Source: Gallionella sp. (GTDB lineage Bacteria > Pseudomonadota > Gammaproteobacteria > Burkholderiales > Gallionellaceae). From it: a stretch of 64,000 nucleotides of DNA. This document shows, one piece after another, positions 50,232 to 57,630 of the stretch. The position numbers and the translations under genes are program-made. The DNA lies in contig JAQTZW010000006.1 of the NCBI GenBank assembly GCA_028687575.1, positions 62,001 through 126,000 on the forward strand, given 5' to 3'. A model generated the notes under the pieces. That model was not told where the DNA came from, did not search any database, and saw nothing but the letters and a program-made list of their open reading frames with translations. The stretch's first letter is position 1. Every line of letters begins with the position of its first letter.

Positions 50232-50651
50232 ATGAATAAGCTGTCTGCCGTTCTGATCGCCCTGCTGGCCTCCGTGAGCCTGTCCGCCCACGCCGACGTC
50301 ATCACCGCCCAACAGGCCGCCAACGACTACGGCGTATTTGCCAAACGGCTCAACCCGAATTCCACCCTGTCAGCCGACGCTGGTCGCGCTTTCTACACCA
50401 AGAAAGTGGTCGTCAACGGCAAGGACGTTTCCTGCTCTTCCTGCCACACCGACAATCCGGCCAATACCGGCAAGCACAACGTGACCGGCAATCCGATCAA
50501 GCCGATGGCACCTTCAGTGAATCCGCAGCGCTTCTCCGACATCAATAAATCGGAAAAGAACTTCACCAATCACTGCAAGGATTTGTACGGCAAGAATTGT
50601 AGCCCGCAGGATAAAGGCGACTTCGTCACCTACCTGCTGACCACCAAGTAA
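50232..50651 (+). CDS. Small periplasmic cytochrome c, DUF1924 (SHP-like)
   Basis: Protein of 139 residues with AAAGGAAG before the ATG. Sec signal (1-22, ending SAHA-D) and one haem motif CSSCH (68-72). The following NVTGNPIKPMAPSVNPQRF and the C-terminal CKDLYGKNCSPQDKGDFVTYLL match DUF1924, the family of sphaeroides haem protein (SHP), a high-spin cytochrome that can bind oxygen or NO. SHP genes often neighbour a diheme cytochrome c and a cytochrome b; here the nearest are 1.4 kb away and in the opposite orientation. Followed by tandem terminator-like hairpins. Confidence 0.85.
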   Translation: MNKLSAVLIALLASVSLSAHADVITAQQAANDYGVFAKRLNPNSTLSADAGRAFYTKKVVVNGKDVSCSSCHTDNPANTGKHNVTGNPIKPMAPSVNPQRFSDINKSEKNFTNHCKDLYGKNCSPQDKGDFVTYLLTTK

Positions 50652-52015: not shown

Positions 52016-53665
52016 TCATCTTGCCGCACGGCGATGGAAGCGATGACAACTTTCGCAGGCGGTTGCCAGCTTGCCGGCAACGGATTTGCCTCCGGCGTGG
52101 CAACTGCGGCACTTACTGATGTCGGGCATCGAAATATCCGCGCTGGACTGCGAATTCTGCTTGTCGTGGCAATCCTGACATTTCATCGTGGCGTGTCGTG
52201 TGTGCGAAAAGCGCGCGCCGGGTTGCCAGTCGGGATTGACGCGTACAGGCGCGACCTGCCAGGGCGTATCCGCCTCCCCGCCCGGCGTGATCTCGTGACA
52301 TTCGCGGCACTGTCCTTTCCCGCCGAACAGCGAAGTTTCGGCATCCTTGCGCGCCAGTTCGAGCGCACAACGGTGCATGTGCTGCACGACATCCTGCCCC
52401 GCTGTGGCCGGCCCACACGCCGCCCGATTTTCGGCAGATTCGGCCAGCCAGGACGTATACCCCTCGCGCAGCCGGCCCATCGCCGCAGACACGGAGCCGT
52501 GCGGCACGCGCCCGTCCAGCGGTTCGGCAAGGTCCAGCCGGTGGCAGCCCGACTGCTGGCAGGACTGGCGCATGGTCATCGGCACGAAATGCTCGCCAGC
52601 CGCATCCGGCTTATGGCAATCGCGGCACTGCATCACCGTGTCGCCCCCCGGCGTTGACACGCCAGACCTATCCAGATGCACCTTGTGGGAGTATTTCAGG
52701 CCGGGCTGCTCCTGCGGCAGGGCGCCAATCGGCACACGCCGCACGCCTGCACCGTCCGGCAGAGTCAGATGAAAGTTCGGATGGCTGGATGAAAAGTCGC
52801 GCGCATCGGCCAGTTTGCTCCCCGCGTTCCGATGCTTGATGTCGCCGTGGCAGCTCACGCAGCGCGCGCGGTCATTTCCCGGCGCGCCGTGTTGCAGCCG
52901 CTCGCGCCCCTGATGGTCGGCGTGACAGGCGGTGCAGCGCAATTCGCCCGCCACCTGCTGCTGAAGTTTCGCATCGGACAGATGCCCGCCCATCTCGCGG
53001 TGACAGCCGGTGCAGGTCTGGTCGGCGACAGGCCGGAACAGCGCGGTGTGACAGGTCGAACATTTGATCCCGGACAGCGCGTGACCGCCCGCCAGCGGCC
53101 CCGGACTCCAGACCCCGCTCAGACTGGCCGGCAACGCGTCCTGCACGGTCGCCAGCGCGTTTGAGGTGATCGGCAGCGCACGCAACACCGGCAGCAACAG
53201 GAACACCAGCAGGATGCAGGCGGCAAGCGTCAGCCCCAGCTTGCGCTTGGAAAAGCCCAGCGCATCCAGCGAAACCGGCAGCTCCCGGCGGTCCGACGCG
53301 CTATCGTTAGTCGCGACATGCTCGACCGCAAGCGCCAGATCGCAACCTGCGGGGGCGGCCTCGACCACGATCCGGTAAGGGCCTACCTCCACGGTGACGT
53401 CCGGTTGCAGGGTCGCCGTCGGACTGAGGTATCCGTTGATCTTGAGCGCCTCATCACCCTGCGCCGCGATGCGCAACGCGCCGCGCTCGGTGCGCCGCAC
53501 TTCGGCATGTTGCAGGGCGACGCGATGGTCGGGCAGATGGATGGCGCAGCCGGCATCCCGGCCCAACTGCAACGCCTCAGCAGCGACCCGGCGCTCGCGG
53601 CGCAGCGGCAGCCCCTGGGGATTGCGCGTCACTTCGATCAGCAGACAGGAGATCATCGCGCTCAC
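52016..53665 (-). CDS. Multihaem cytochrome c with N-terminal FHA domain
   Basis: Protein of 549 residues. Residues 20-105 form an FHA-like domain (LQLGRDAGCAIHLPDHRVAL, then QHAEV and INGYLSP); Gly-Arg, His53 and Asn-Gly are kept, but the usual Ser before xxH is Ala. One membrane helix (about 141-164) follows, then a periplasmic region with nine CXXCH motifs (CSTCH, CTGCH, CTACH, CVSCH, CRDCH, CRECH, CQDCH, CRSCH, CESCH) and one CX4CH (CQQSGCH). The FHA part is cytoplasmic. It overlaps the cytochrome b gene by 4 bp. An FHA domain fused to a multihaem cytochrome is unusual: it suggests a phosphorylation-dependent partner controlling electron flow. Confidence 0.85.
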   Translation of the reverse strand: MSAMISCLLIEVTRNPQGLPLRRERRVAAEALQLGRDAGCAIHLPDHRVALQHAEVRRTERGALRIAAQGDEALKINGYLSPTATLQPDVTVEVGPYRIVVEAAPAGCDLALAVEHVATNDSASDRRELPVSLDALGFSKRKLGLTLAACILLVFLLLPVLRALPITSNALATVQDALPASLSGVWSPGPLAGGHALSGIKCSTCHTALFRPVADQTCTGCHREMGGHLSDAKLQQQVAGELRCTACHADHQGRERLQHGAPGNDRARCVSCHGDIKHRNAGSKLADARDFSSSHPNFHLTLPDGAGVRRVPIGALPQEQPGLKYSHKVHLDRSGVSTPGGDTVMQCRDCHKPDAAGEHFVPMTMRQSCQQSGCHRLDLAEPLDGRVPHGSVSAAMGRLREGYTSWLAESAENRAACGPATAGQDVVQHMHRCALELARKDAETSLFGGKGQCRECHEITPGGEADTPWQVAPVRVNPDWQPGARFSHTRHATMKCQDCHDKQNSQSSADISMPDISKCRSCHAGGKSVAGKLATACESCHRFHRRAAR

Positions 53666-54552
53666 CAGAAGTAATAGACCGTAAAAACATGCGCCACGAG
53701 TGCCGCCAGCAGGGCGATGCCGAGCGGCGCGTGCAACCTCAGCCAGACCGTCATGCGCGCCCGCAACATGATGTCGGCGCGGGCGCGCAGCAGCATTCCT
53801 TCCTTGCGCGACAGCGCCTCATAAAGATCGCGCAGCGCCGCCTGCTCTGCCGGCTCACGGCATTTCCCCGCCAGTTCCGGCAGGCGCTGCAACGCGGCAT
53901 GGGTCGGGCAGTCGCGCTGCACGCCGCTCAACTGCTGCCAGAGATCGCCGCCCACGCGCGTCTCCCGGCAGGCTGCCCGCACCAGCGCGTTGACCTCGTC
54001 CGGCAGTTGCAGCGCGCGCGCCTCCGCCGAGCGATCTAGTTCCGCGACCTTCAGCAGCAGGTCGGCCAGCGTCTCCCCGCCCAGGTTGGCGGTCAGCCGT
54101 GCCGGGAGGGTCAGGTAGGCGTACAGCCCGTAGCCGCCGCTGGCCATCACCAGCACCATCAGCGCGTAAGGCAGGGTGTGCACGTTCCAGCCGAACTCAA
54201 AACCGCTGTGCAGCGTCGCCAGCACCAGCAACAGCCCGCCCAGATAGACGTGTGCCGATAGCCAGCCTTGCAAGGTCGCACCCTCGCCCCTGGCAACCCG
54301 CCCGGCTTTCCTGCGCCAGCCGAAACCGCGCCGTGCGACACCATAAAACATCAGCACCAGCAACAGCAGCGTCGCCGCGATGCCCAGCCCGTAGCCCGCG
54401 ACCGTGCCGCCATACCCCGGACTGCCGGCCTCGCCGCCCGCCAGATAGACCGTGACCGCCAGCAGTGCAGCCGCCGCCGTCGCCTTCAGATAACGGGCGT
54501 TGCGGTAAGTCAGCAGCGTGGCATCACGGTTCAGGTTCAGGTTCGGGTTCAT
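53662..54552 (-). CDS. Inner-membrane cytochrome b, four to five helices
   Basis: About 296 residues from the ATG at 54552, preceded by GGAGAGAG; a longer frame from 54591 overlaps the upstream gene. Hydrophobic segments occur near 25-45, 55-80, 100-125, 130-150 and 270-290. Histidines suitable as haem ligands are paired in helices: SAHVYLGGLLLVLATLHSGF and LRLHAPLGIALLAALVAHVF. A soluble loop of about 110 residues lies between. Such proteins pass electrons across the membrane from a cytoplasmic flavoprotein to periplasmic haems. Confidence 0.78.
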   Translation of the reverse strand: MNPNLNLNRDATLLTYRNARYLKATAAAALLAVTVYLAGGEAGSPGYGGTVAGYGLGIAATLLLLVLMFYGVARRGFGWRRKAGRVARGEGATLQGWLSAHVYLGGLLLVLATLHSGFEFGWNVHTLPYALMVLVMASGGYGLYAYLTLPARLTANLGGETLADLLLKVAELDRSAEARALQLPDEVNALVRAACRETRVGGDLWQQLSGVQRDCPTHAALQRLPELAGKCREPAEQAALRDLYEALSRKEGMLLRARADIMLRARMTVWLRLHAPLGIALLAALVAHVFTVYYFW

Positions 54553-54580
54553 CTGGCTCTCTCTCCGATTCGCAGGCAGT

Positions 54581-56956
54581 TTATCCGGCATTCTTCAGCA
54601 ACGCCTCGGGATGGCCGCGCATCGCAGCGCCGGTCGGGCAGGCCCGCACACACACCGGCCCGCCGGCGATGTCCTTGCACATATCGCACTTGACAGCCTT
54701 TTTCGGCGCATCGGTGTCGGCAGCCGCCTCCTGCCGGGCCTGTCCCAGCAATATCTGCCAGAAACTGCGCGGCGGGTATTCCCGCTCCGCCGCCATGCGG
54801 ATCACGCCATACGGACAATTCCGCTGGCAGTTGCCGCAACCGATGCAGTTGTCGCCGATGTACACCTCGCCATCAACCGCGCGATGGATGGCATCCGGCG
54901 GGCAATCCTTCATGCAGTGCGGATGTTCGCAATGCCGGCAGGAAGTCGGCACATGAATCTGCGCCCAGGTCGCGCCCGCCTCCCGGTCCAGCCGGGACGC
55001 GCCGCCGTGGGAATCGGCGCAGGCGCTCTCGCAGTTGTTGCAGCGGATGCAGCGCGCGTAGTCTATCAGCAGCACATCGGCGGCCTCGCCCACGCCCTGC
55101 TCCATCAGGAAATTGATCACCCCCTCCGCCTGCCCGGTGCGCTGCCCGTCGCGCACGTTCTCAAGGTAGCGGCTGCCGATCTTGCCGCGCAATCCGGTAT
55201 TGCGGCCCAGCACCTCGCCGACCCGCGCCGCTTCGAGCAGCACCACTTCGGCGGGAGAGGCCGCCCGCACCGTCGCCGACCGGGGCTGGCTGGAAAGCAG
55301 TGCCATCTCGCCGACATAATTGCCCGCCGGCAAATACGCCAGCACCACGTCCCGCCCCTCGCTGCGGCGCGACACCGTGACCGAGCCGCGCCGGATCAGG
55401 TGCAGCCCGTCCGCCGCGTCCCCCTCGGCAAACACCGTGTCGCCCATCGCATAGCTTCTGACCTGCGCGCCCTGCACCAGATAGTCAATCTCCCGCTCCG
55501 GCAGCACGGTGTCCAGACAGCGCGCCACCACCCGCTTCAACGCCACCTCGTCCAGCTTGCGCTGCACCCCCTTGACCGCATGCAGCAGCTTCAACATCGC
55601 GCGGCGCGGTGTCTCGACCAGCACGCAATCCTGACTTGCCACCGCCGTACCGGAACGGCGACGGCCCGACAGCAGGCTCATCTCGCCGAAGAATTCGCCC
55701 TCGCGCAGGCCGAACACGGCAGCCACCCCCTGCCGGTCCGTGGTCTCGATGGCAATGCCGCCGGACAGGATGGAATAGAAACTGTTGCTGTAATCGTTAC
55801 TCTGGAACACCACTTCGCCACGCGGCAACACCCGCAAGCTGCTGCCCAGCATGAATTCGCGCAGTTGCAGCGTGGTGAGCGACGCCAGCAGCGGCATTTT
55901 CTGTCGGAGCAGCGCCACCCCCTCGCTCACCGAGGCGATCCCCGGCACGCCGGCAAATTTCGCCGCCAGCAACGCTTCGTCCGCCGGTGCGACCGGATGG
56001 CCCAGGATGGCCTCGATCACCTCGTAGCCCTGATTCATCGCCTGCTTGATCAGCGGATAACCCGCCAGCGCGCCGATGATGTACAGCCCCGGCACGTTGG
56101 ATTCGTAATGCTCCGACAACTCCGGCAAGGCGGTCGAATCGCCGGACGGGAAAGCCACGCCGAACCGCTCCAGCAGCGGGCGCGGCGGCTTCGCGCCGAT
56201 GCGGGCGATGACGCGGTGGCAGGCTATCCGCTCCAGCCCCTGTTGCGTTTGTGCGACATAAACCAGCGGGAAATCACCGCTCTGCTGCTCGATGGATTCC
56301 GTCCGGCTGCCGAGCCGGGTCTCGATGCTTCCTTGGGCGACCGCCGCCATCAGCCGCTCGTGATTGGCGGCCGCGCAGTCGCCGAATTCCTCGTTGCGGT
56401 TCACCAGAATGACGCGATTCTGACCGGCCAGCCCCAGCGCGTTCTCCACGCCCGCATCGCCGCCGCCCACCACCACGATGGTCTCGCCGCAAAATTCATC
56501 CGGGTCATCCAGCTGGTATTGCACCCCCGGCAGCTCGCCGCCCGGCACCTCCAGCTTGCGGATATTGCCCTGCAAGCCGATCGCCAGCACCACTTGCCCG
56601 GCCTGCACGGTCGCGCCATCCGCCAGCGTGACGCAAAAATCGCCGCGCTGCCCGGCGATGTCCGTCACCCGCGCATTCAGCCGCAGCTTGATGCCGAGTT
56701 GCACTGCCCCGGCCTGCCAGCAAGCCAGGATGTCCTCGCGCAAACCGGCGGCGAAGGCAAGACTGCTGCGCAGCGGCAACTGCGCGGGCTCGGCCATCAC
56801 CGCCTTGCCTTTCTGGAAATGATGCAGAGTGTCGGCCAGACGGGGCGAGGCCTCCAGCAGCAGATGCGATGCCCCCGATTCCGCCGCCCGCGCCGCCGCC
56901 GACAACCCGCCCGGGCCGGCCCCCACAATCACAATGTCAAACTTTTCAACCATCAA
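54581..56956 (-). CDS. FAD-dependent oxidoreductase with two cNMP-binding domains and a four-cluster ferredoxin tail
   Basis: Protein of 791 residues. N-terminal FAD domain (1-300) with VIVGAGPGGLSAAARAAESG and NAD(P)-type motif IVVVGGGDAGVENALGLA; there is no CxxC of thioredoxin reductase. Two cyclic-nucleotide-binding domains follow (about 345-470, with FSNDYSNSFYSILSGGIAIE-like sequence and GEFFGEMSLLSGRRRSGTA; about 480-600, with VFAEGDAADGLHLIRRGSVT and GNYVGEMALLSSQPRSATV). The last 160 residues carry four [4Fe-4S] motifs (CIRCNNCESAC, CRHCEHPHCMKDCP, CIGCGNCQRNCP, CDMCKD...CVRACP). It likely takes electrons from NAD(P)H and passes them to the cytochrome b encoded next; the cNMP domains suggest allosteric control. 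Confidence 0.85.
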   Translation of the reverse strand: MMVEKFDIVIVGAGPGGLSAAARAAESGASHLLLEASPRLADTLHHFQKGKAVMAEPAQLPLRSSLAFAAGLREDILACWQAGAVQLGIKLRLNARVTDIAGQRGDFCVTLADGATVQAGQVVLAIGLQGNIRKLEVPGGELPGVQYQLDDPDEFCGETIVVVGGGDAGVENALGLAGQNRVILVNRNEEFGDCAAANHERLMAAVAQGSIETRLGSRTESIEQQSGDFPLVYVAQTQQGLERIACHRVIARIGAKPPRPLLERFGVAFPSGDSTALPELSEHYESNVPGLYIIGALAGYPLIKQAMNQGYEVIEAILGHPVAPADEALLAAKFAGVPGIASVSEGVALLRQKMPLLASLTTLQLREFMLGSSLRVLPRGEVVFQSNDYSNSFYSILSGGIAIETTDRQGVAAVFGLREGEFFGEMSLLSGRRRSGTAVASQDCVLVETPRRAMLKLLHAVKGVQRKLDEVALKRVVARCLDTVLPEREIDYLVQGAQVRSYAMGDTVFAEGDAADGLHLIRRGSVTVSRRSEGRDVVLAYLPAGNYVGEMALLSSQPRSATVRAASPAEVVLLEAARVGEVLGRNTGLRGKIGSRYLENVRDGQRTGQAEGVINFLMEQGVGEAADVLLIDYARCIRCNNCESACADSHGGASRLDREAGATWAQIHVPTSCRHCEHPHCMKDCPPDAIHRAVDGEVYIGDNCIGCGNCQRNCPYGVIRMAAEREYPPRSFWQILLGQARQEAAADTDAPKKAVKCDMCKDIAGGPVCVRACPTGAAMRGHPEALLKNAG

Positions 56957-57069: not shown

Positions 57070-57630
57070 TCATTCACCAAATCGCCCTCCGGATTCTTCC
57101 TCACCGGTTGCCCAATCGGGCGGATAGATACCTGCCTTTACATACCGGTTAAAACTGGAGTACGGCCAATCTGCCACGCATTTTACATAGCCGTGCTTGA
57201 CCGGATTCCAATGAATGTAATCCGCATGCCGGGCAAAATCTCGCTCGTCACGAATTTGATGTTCCCAGTAGCGGTTCTGCCAAAGTGTGCCTTGACGCTT
57301 TTGCTTGCGGCGCTCGGTCAGGTATTCGTCACGCGCCAACCTGATGCCACAATGTTGCGTCACCGCAGTTTTAATCAAACGCCAACGCGTGGCGAAATCC
57401 GCATCCCCCGGCGGCAACGTCCACAGACAATGCAGGTGATCCGGCAACAACACCCATGCGTGAATTGCAAAGGGAAGCGTTGTTCTCACGGCATCAATCG
57501 CCTCGCGCAATGCAGTCCGCACGTCCGCCTCCACCAGCAGCGGCTGGCGGCGCAGGGTAGTAACCGTGAAGAAATAGCAGCCTCCTTCAGTGTTGGAACG
57601 GCGATAGTTGGGCATGGCATTACGGTTCAA
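57070..57630 (-). CDS. REP-associated tyrosine transposase (RAYT)
   Basis: Protein of up to 186 residues; a start at MPNYRRS (57615) gives 181. Y1-transposase features: CYFFTVTTLRRQPLL at the start, the metal-binding H-x-H in AWVLLPDHLHCLW, and the downstream YIHWNPVKHGY, whose tyrosine is the likely nucleophile. It is complete and flanked by REPs, so it probably still mobilises them. RAYTs are domesticated and usually vertically inherited. Confidence 0.92.
   Translation of the reverse strand: MNRNAMPNYRRSNTEGGCYFFTVTTLRRQPLLVEADVRTALREAIDAVRTTLPFAIHAWVLLPDHLHCLWTLPPGDADFATRWRLIKTAVTQHCGIRLARDEYLTERRKQKRQGTLWQNRYWEHQIRDERDFARHADYIHWNPVKHGYVKCVADWPYSSFNRYVKAGIYPPDWATGEEESGGRFGE

Follow-up and report, generated by a model that had tools for sequence, protein, structure and literature searches.

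A conserved flavoprotein, cytochrome b and decahaem cytochrome gene set of Gallionella resembles the inner-membrane part of PCC4-like electron-transfer systems and is a candidate for cyclic-nucleotide control

We analysed a stretch of 64,000 nucleotides from Gallionella sp. (assembly GCA_028687575.1, contig JAQTZW010000006.1, positions 62,001 to 126,000; referred to below as the window), which belongs to a genome of 2.9 Mb in 29 contigs. Its minus strand carries, at 52016-56953, three genes encoding a flavoprotein with two cyclic-nucleotide (cNMP)-binding domains and iron-sulfur clusters, a di-haem cytochrome b, and a cytochrome c in which a forkhead-associated (FHA)-like domain precedes ten haem sites. 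We consider it fairly probable that the three products form one inner-membrane electron conduit, the inner-membrane module of PCC4-like systems, which is switched by cyclic nucleotides and has a cytochrome c''-like protein as its partner. A preliminary description of the window had placed the three genes here, tightly packed on one strand, and the open reading frames (ORFs) agree with it. The flavoprotein ORF opens with TTG at 56956, its second codon being the ATG at 56953; the cytochrome b ORF opens at 54591 and the decahaem ORF, with GTG, at 53665. Based on ATG codons and alignments, the starts were revised to the ATGs at 56953, 54552 and 53656, respectively, leaving intergenic gaps of about 28 and 5 bases. 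A Y1/IS200-like transposase ORF (57070-57630) lies directly upstream of the operon on the same strand.

Relatives were sought with the cytochrome b and were found in 18 of 120 genomes of the window's family and in 29 of 399 of its order; an alignment-based search found them in 17 of 398 genomes of the phylum (the window's own genome is counted in each). Together with two named records from a contig scan, these matches made up a table of 62 loci, 18 inside the family and 44 outside, which does not include the distant matches G188, G633 and G648. The decahaem gene could be read in 61 of them (in G416 the contig ends), and in all 61 it lay next to the cytochrome b gene on the same strand, following it, with about 0.8 kb more between the two in G538. 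Of the 57 loci with a contig that extends far enough, 56 encode the flavin/Fe-S protein in the cluster as well. An apparent lack of the flavoprotein in many relatives was considered and rejected, since longer stretches place its gene at the other end of a cluster of seven genes. In two genomes (G653 and G538; loci L142 and L143), a single ORF of 1125 and 1120 residues, respectively, encodes the flavin/cNMP/Fe-S protein fused to the cytochrome b. The tree distances of the three proteins also correlated with each other (r = 0.926 to 0.933, shared species history included; Mantel P value at the floor of 0.001; n = 50 of the 62 loci, namely those in which all five parts could be read, minus G388). 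These counts place the gene set far beyond chance, and the linkage, the fusions and the matching trees bear out the earlier proposal that the three genes are one system. Homologues are not mostly unlinked, nor are the two signalling domains lost in nearly all relatives: the FHA fold, recognized by its Gly-Arg pair, is kept in 55 of 61 decahaem rows, and cNMP domains are present in 52 loci. One contig (C116 of G392; L086 and L087) holds two copies of the cluster facing each other.

The architecture of the proteins is consistent with an electron path across the inner membrane. The flavoprotein matched Pyr_redox_2 (Pfam, 8e-29), and both of its Rossmann motifs were conserved among the aligned rows that reach them; its iron-sulfur part contained Fer4 domains by Pfam and four CxxC-led cubane-type motifs by motif scan. 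The only Pfam match of the cytochrome b was DUF4405, below threshold. Its four predicted haem b ligands were nevertheless invariant, H114, H128 and H287 in 49 of 49 rows each and H301 in 48 of 48. The window protein has two copies of the motif WX3HX13H, as do 47 of 49 rows, and SGXXG (SGGYG at residue 151 in the window) occurred in 45 of 49. A simple hydropathy scan gave three clear transmembrane segments, and the structure model was of low confidence. The decahaem protein matched Cytochrome_C7/c3 domains; it has ten haem sites, counted as nine CXXCH motifs and one CX4CH, and its relatives outside the family mostly have ten CXXCH. This count upholds the earlier estimate of about ten periplasmic haems. 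The path from NAD(P)H and iron-sulfur clusters through a membrane cytochrome b to these haems, also proposed earlier, draws support from the four invariant histidines and from the ORFs in which Fe-S protein and cytochrome b are fused. We infer that NAD(P)H or another cytoplasmic carrier would reduce the FAD of the flavoprotein and that electrons would pass through the four [4Fe-4S] clusters of the ferredoxin-type part, the proposed link to the cytochrome b, then over two haems b in the membrane to the ten haems c in the periplasm. The coordinates of the features are given in Table 1.

Table 1. Positions in the window, strand and supporting evidence of the features discussed
Feature	Positions	Strand	Evidence
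Flavin / two cNMP-binding / four-[4Fe-4S] protein, 790 residues	54581..56953	-	Pfam, conserved sites, trees
Pyr_redox_2 domain, FAD/NAD(P)-type, residues 6-310	56027..56941	-	Pfam
First cNMP-binding domain, cassette GEMSLLSGRRRSG	55547..55837	-	Alignment; boundaries approximate
Second cNMP-binding domain, cassette GEMALLSSQPRSA	55187..55489	-	Pfam and alignment; boundaries approximate
Ferredoxin-type part, four cubane motifs	54587..55075	-	Pfam Fer4, motif scan, fusion in L142 and L143
Di-haem cytochrome b, IMP type of PCC3/PCC4, about 296 residues	53662..54552	-	Motifs, invariant His
FHA-transmembrane-decahaem cytochrome c, 546 residues	52016..53656	-	Pfam, alignments, motif scan
FHA-like domain without phosphothreonine serine	53351..53653	-	Sub-threshold Pfam, alignments
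Transmembrane segment of decahaem protein, residues 143-161	53183..53239	-	Hydropathy
Periplasmic ten-haem domain, nine CXXCH and one CX4CH	52031..53083	-	Motif scan, Pfam
Cytochrome c''-like / SHP-family (DUF1924) monohaem protein, His at sixth-ligand position	50232..50651	+	Pfam, homologue search, alignments

The cytochrome b carries the SGXXG and the two WX3HX13H motifs that mark the inner-membrane protein (IMP) of the porin-cytochrome clusters PCC3 and PCC4 in the main-text sections of He et al. (2017; PMC5566968). Five transmembrane helices are expected of an IMP, compared with the three clear segments of the hydropathy scan. As in those systems, an IMP with these motifs adjoins a ten-haem cytochrome, and an Fe-S gene lies upstream of the IMP gene as in subgroup II, a gene order that the window shares (PMC5566968). 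The window cluster differs from PCC4 in having no porin, 4-haem or 5-haem gene, and it carries cNMP and FHA domains, neither of which is mentioned in the main-text sections of the published account (domain drawings excluded; PMC5566968). By similarity, a porin-like gene lies beside the cytochrome b gene in 32 of the 44 loci outside the family versus none of the 18 inside, and none was found in the neighbourhood in the window. The porin-like proteins had no Pfam porin match, and 30 of 32 have Tyr or Phe as their last residue. After the trio, G300, G388 and G226 carry genes for a 4-haem and a 5-haem cytochrome and a 528-residue porin-like protein, which is the PCC4 set. Overall, the 4-haem gene occurred in 24 of the 62 loci and the 5-haem gene in 3, neither near the window operon. 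Eighteen loci of other families have the order cytochrome b, decahaem, HbpS-like, porin-like, large ExtM-like multihaem, 4-haem and flavin/cNMP/Fe-S protein, and 19 loci hold all seven genes. Because of the IMP motifs and of the porin-like genes found outside the family and not inside it, we read the trio as the inner-membrane module of a PCC4-like system, present here without the porin. In the seven-gene cluster (L090, L091, L102, L108-L112, L158-L170), the ExtM-like protein has LVIVD repeats, and ccm genes adjoin several of the loci.

The direction of flow was weighed against the published model. He et al. draw PCC4 flow inward, to the quinone pool (main-text sections; PMC5566968), and electrons could likewise pass here from extracellular or periplasmic donors to the decahaem and the cytochrome b and end at the quinone pool or the Fe-S protein; the flavin part would then be a side branch or redox sensor. 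The porin-like genes of the relatives outside the family fit such inward flow, as does G088, a member of the window's family in which the operon stands directly before monohaem, decahaem and MtrB/PioB genes. On the other hand, NAD(P) reduction from iron-level potentials by way of two haems b would have to work uphill against the membrane potential. The flavin/four-cluster arm is kept in 56 of 57 loci, and a route to quinone only would have no use for it. We regard inward flow as unlikely, if a serious contender. Should NAD(P)H be the donor, outward flow seems likelier because it would go downhill in potential and follow the membrane potential. Such an outward valve would have to be switched, and the paired cNMP domains probably do this by acting on the flavin/Fe-S part, which would prevent the waste of reductant and membrane potential. 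In the window's family, the decahaem would exchange electrons, in either direction, with soluble periplasmic cytochromes; an outer-membrane conduit is the other candidate acceptor. A more specific form of this proposal, which we offer tentatively, is that the trio is a cNMP-gated transmembrane NAD(P)H:multihaem oxidoreductase, the regulated inner-membrane valve for porin-cytochrome systems as a class, and that the family shed the porin and took as a dedicated partner an SHP whose ligand switched from Asn to His (cytochrome c'').

The preliminary description had suggested gating by both a nucleotide and a kinase, and the two parts fared differently. The flavoprotein matched cNMP_binding in two stretches (Pfam, 9e-41), and the Glu and Arg of the phosphate-binding cassette are present in both domains of the window protein. 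By a strict pattern, 50 of 52 loci retained at least one intact cassette and 38 retained both. The own genome encodes class III cyclase domains (four PF00211 matches, three of them strong), of which one is linked to PilZ and another to CHASE2. Nucleotide gating is plausible because the cassettes are kept and class III cyclase domains are encoded. The PF00211-PilZ protein (PF00211 plus PF07238; L231, contig C21, 1554-2666) may connect cyclic di-GMP with cNMP signalling. A PCC4-like cluster in G633 (L156) encodes a 586-residue protein with three cNMP stretches and Fer4 in which the flavin domain was not found.

The FHA domain of the window protein scored below the Pfam cut-off (18.9 versus 20.7 bits), with one relative above it (23.2 bits), and six of the 61 decahaem proteins are without any FHA domain. 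Its place on the cytoplasmic side, as described earlier, fits the single transmembrane segment with three Lys/Arg before it and one after. In FHA domains, a conserved Ser after the Arg of the Gly-Arg pair contacts the phosphothreonine. In the alignment, 4 of 55 rows have this Ser, and the window protein has Ala instead. With the Ser absent from 51 of 55 rows, kinase gating is not supported, despite five PF00069 Pkinase matches in the own genome; judging from these matches, the genome is not short of kinases, and it is a phosphothreonine reader domain that appears to be lacking. The FHA-like domain probably serves assembly or docking rather than the reading of phosphothreonine. The same data bear on whether the trio might be a signalling device in which the decahaem senses periplasmic redox state and the cNMP and FHA domains relay it. 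Two kinds of signalling domain in the trio and the cyclase and Pkinase domains of the genome would suit such a device; the missing Ser, the six decahaem proteins without FHA, and the ten haems with their porin-cytochrome context, which favour transport, make it very improbable.

Next to the operon, separated from the decahaem gene by 1.4 kb that include a metallophosphoesterase gene, lies the gene for the cytochrome c''-like protein (DUF1924, Pfam 2.8e-35). Its best PDB match was cytochrome c'' of Methylophilus methylotrophus (1e8e, 4e-30), and it also matched SHP of Rhodobacter sphaeroides (1dw0, 1e-12). Like 1e8e, it has a His at the ligand site followed by a C-X7-C disulfide pair, the ligation being predicted by alignment. 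The best 13 homologues among the 120 family genomes (E value up to 1.2e-40; the next, 8.7e-30) were all in genomes with the operon, so that the His-type gene occurred in 13 of 18 operon genomes versus 0 of 102 without the operon; ten of the 13 lay beside the operon. The threshold was set after the list had been viewed and the genomes are related, so these figures describe rather than test. The sixth-ligand residue was His in 15 of 15 copies (the 13 of the family and those of L142 and L143) and Asn in 17 of 17 other copies, which were hand-picked and include three second copies in operon genomes. Across the order, 27 of the 30 loci inspected had Asn (two of them overlapping with the 17), and the three with His were the own genome and two Methylophilus-like genomes, G421 and G449. 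In the sections drawn on, a survey of SHP counts the His type as a minority (4 of 42), reports that the Methylophilus His-type protein does not bind oxygen, and places known SHP genes with CytB and diheme cytochromes c (PMC2909971), where the neighbour here is the trio. The cytochrome c''-like protein is the best candidate for a periplasmic partner of the decahaem.

Several observations weigh against the reading of the trio as a cNMP-switched conduit with a c''-like partner, in addition to the published inward model. The NAD(P) site of the flavoprotein is a motif-based call. One or both cNMP cassettes were missed by the pattern in 14 of 52 loci, and in G088 a His replaces the Arg of the second cassette. 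In G122, the one exception to the linkage, the cytochrome b and decahaem genes were found and the flavoprotein gene was not in the region read. Structure predictions from three-sequence alignments (mean pLDDT 39.2 and 63.4) were too poor to help, and a Foldseek search with the second gave no match at an E value of ≤0.001. The operon is not obviously needed as an inner-membrane partner of the Mto system, because the genome encodes a haem c-b561 fusion for it. As to the cytochrome c''-like gene, it lies on the opposite strand to the operon in the window, it is unlinked in three of the 13 genomes that have it (G056, G065 and G083), and it is missing from 5 of the 18 operon genomes, two of which are 72% and 86% complete; the two Methylophilus-like genomes, which are without the operon, carry the His type, followed by a b561-type cytochrome b.

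An alternative is that the c'' link came about through common descent or shared gene transfer and reflects no functional pairing. The 120 genomes are those of one family and are not independent, the E value gap was picked from a list already seen, three genes are unlinked, and other partners are possible for the decahaem. Against this, genomes of the same genus without the operon carry the Asn type only, among the copies read; operon genomes G104, G065 and G042 retain an Asn-type copy as well; and L142 and L143, from two genomes of a different family and class, show the same neighbourhood again. We judge an origin without functional pairing to be doubtful.

Elsewhere in the own genome, the Mto cluster (L230, contig C2, 2999-8943) encodes a 687-residue fusion protein followed by monohaem, decahaem and MtrB/PioB porin genes. 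The fusion protein combines a b561-type membrane domain with about nine haem c motifs and would be a CbcL-like inner-membrane partner of Mto in the place of CymA. The trio was considered as a missing Mto partner, a role that was rejected since the Mto cluster has this protein. A search of the own genome for NapC/CymA-type proteins found none, a result that is untrustworthy since the search missed a 31.8-bit match in the Mto decahaem.

The system is a known kind, a PCC4-like inner-membrane module, in a new form. Compared with the trio by description, CbcL of Geobacter is not known to have a flavin/cNMP/Fe-S arm. Like the trio, CbcL and other c/b-type inner-membrane cytochromes combine haem b membrane parts with multihaem c parts and provide an inner-membrane step to extracellular acceptors (sections of PMC5585712). 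The ext clusters of Geobacter (extHIJKLMNOPQS) bring together a porin, an ExtM-like multihaem protein and a membrane cytochrome b, as the related clusters do, with a Rieske-type ExtO where the trio has the flavin/cNMP/Fe-S protein (sections of PMC5877670). The large multihaem protein of the related clusters matched ExtM weakly (66.8 bits, cut-off 800). Among 87 Gallionellaceae iron oxidisers, 27 carry a Cluster 403 "Forkhead-associated protein" with ten haem motifs, which Table 1 of that study lists under "Other" with no context or function (PMC10734462). Judging from the FHA domain and the ten haems, Cluster 403 is very probably the same decahaem family. The earlier statement that no named system has this set is not supported: its cytochrome b falls into the IMP type of PCC3/PCC4, and a Forkhead-associated protein with ten haems had already been listed. 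In the open-licence literature, supplements aside, no publication describing the trio, the cNMP domains or the c'' link was found.

For PCC4-like systems, the passage of electrons across the inner membrane has, to our knowledge, so far been guesswork. A conserved trio with a flavin/Fe-S arm and a cNMP switch would offer a concrete and testable answer for this step, and it suggests that extracellular electron transfer may be controlled by a second messenger through direct binding. Likewise, we know of no physiological function for cytochrome c''; if the link described here is true, it would give the protein its first physiological setting and make its role testable.

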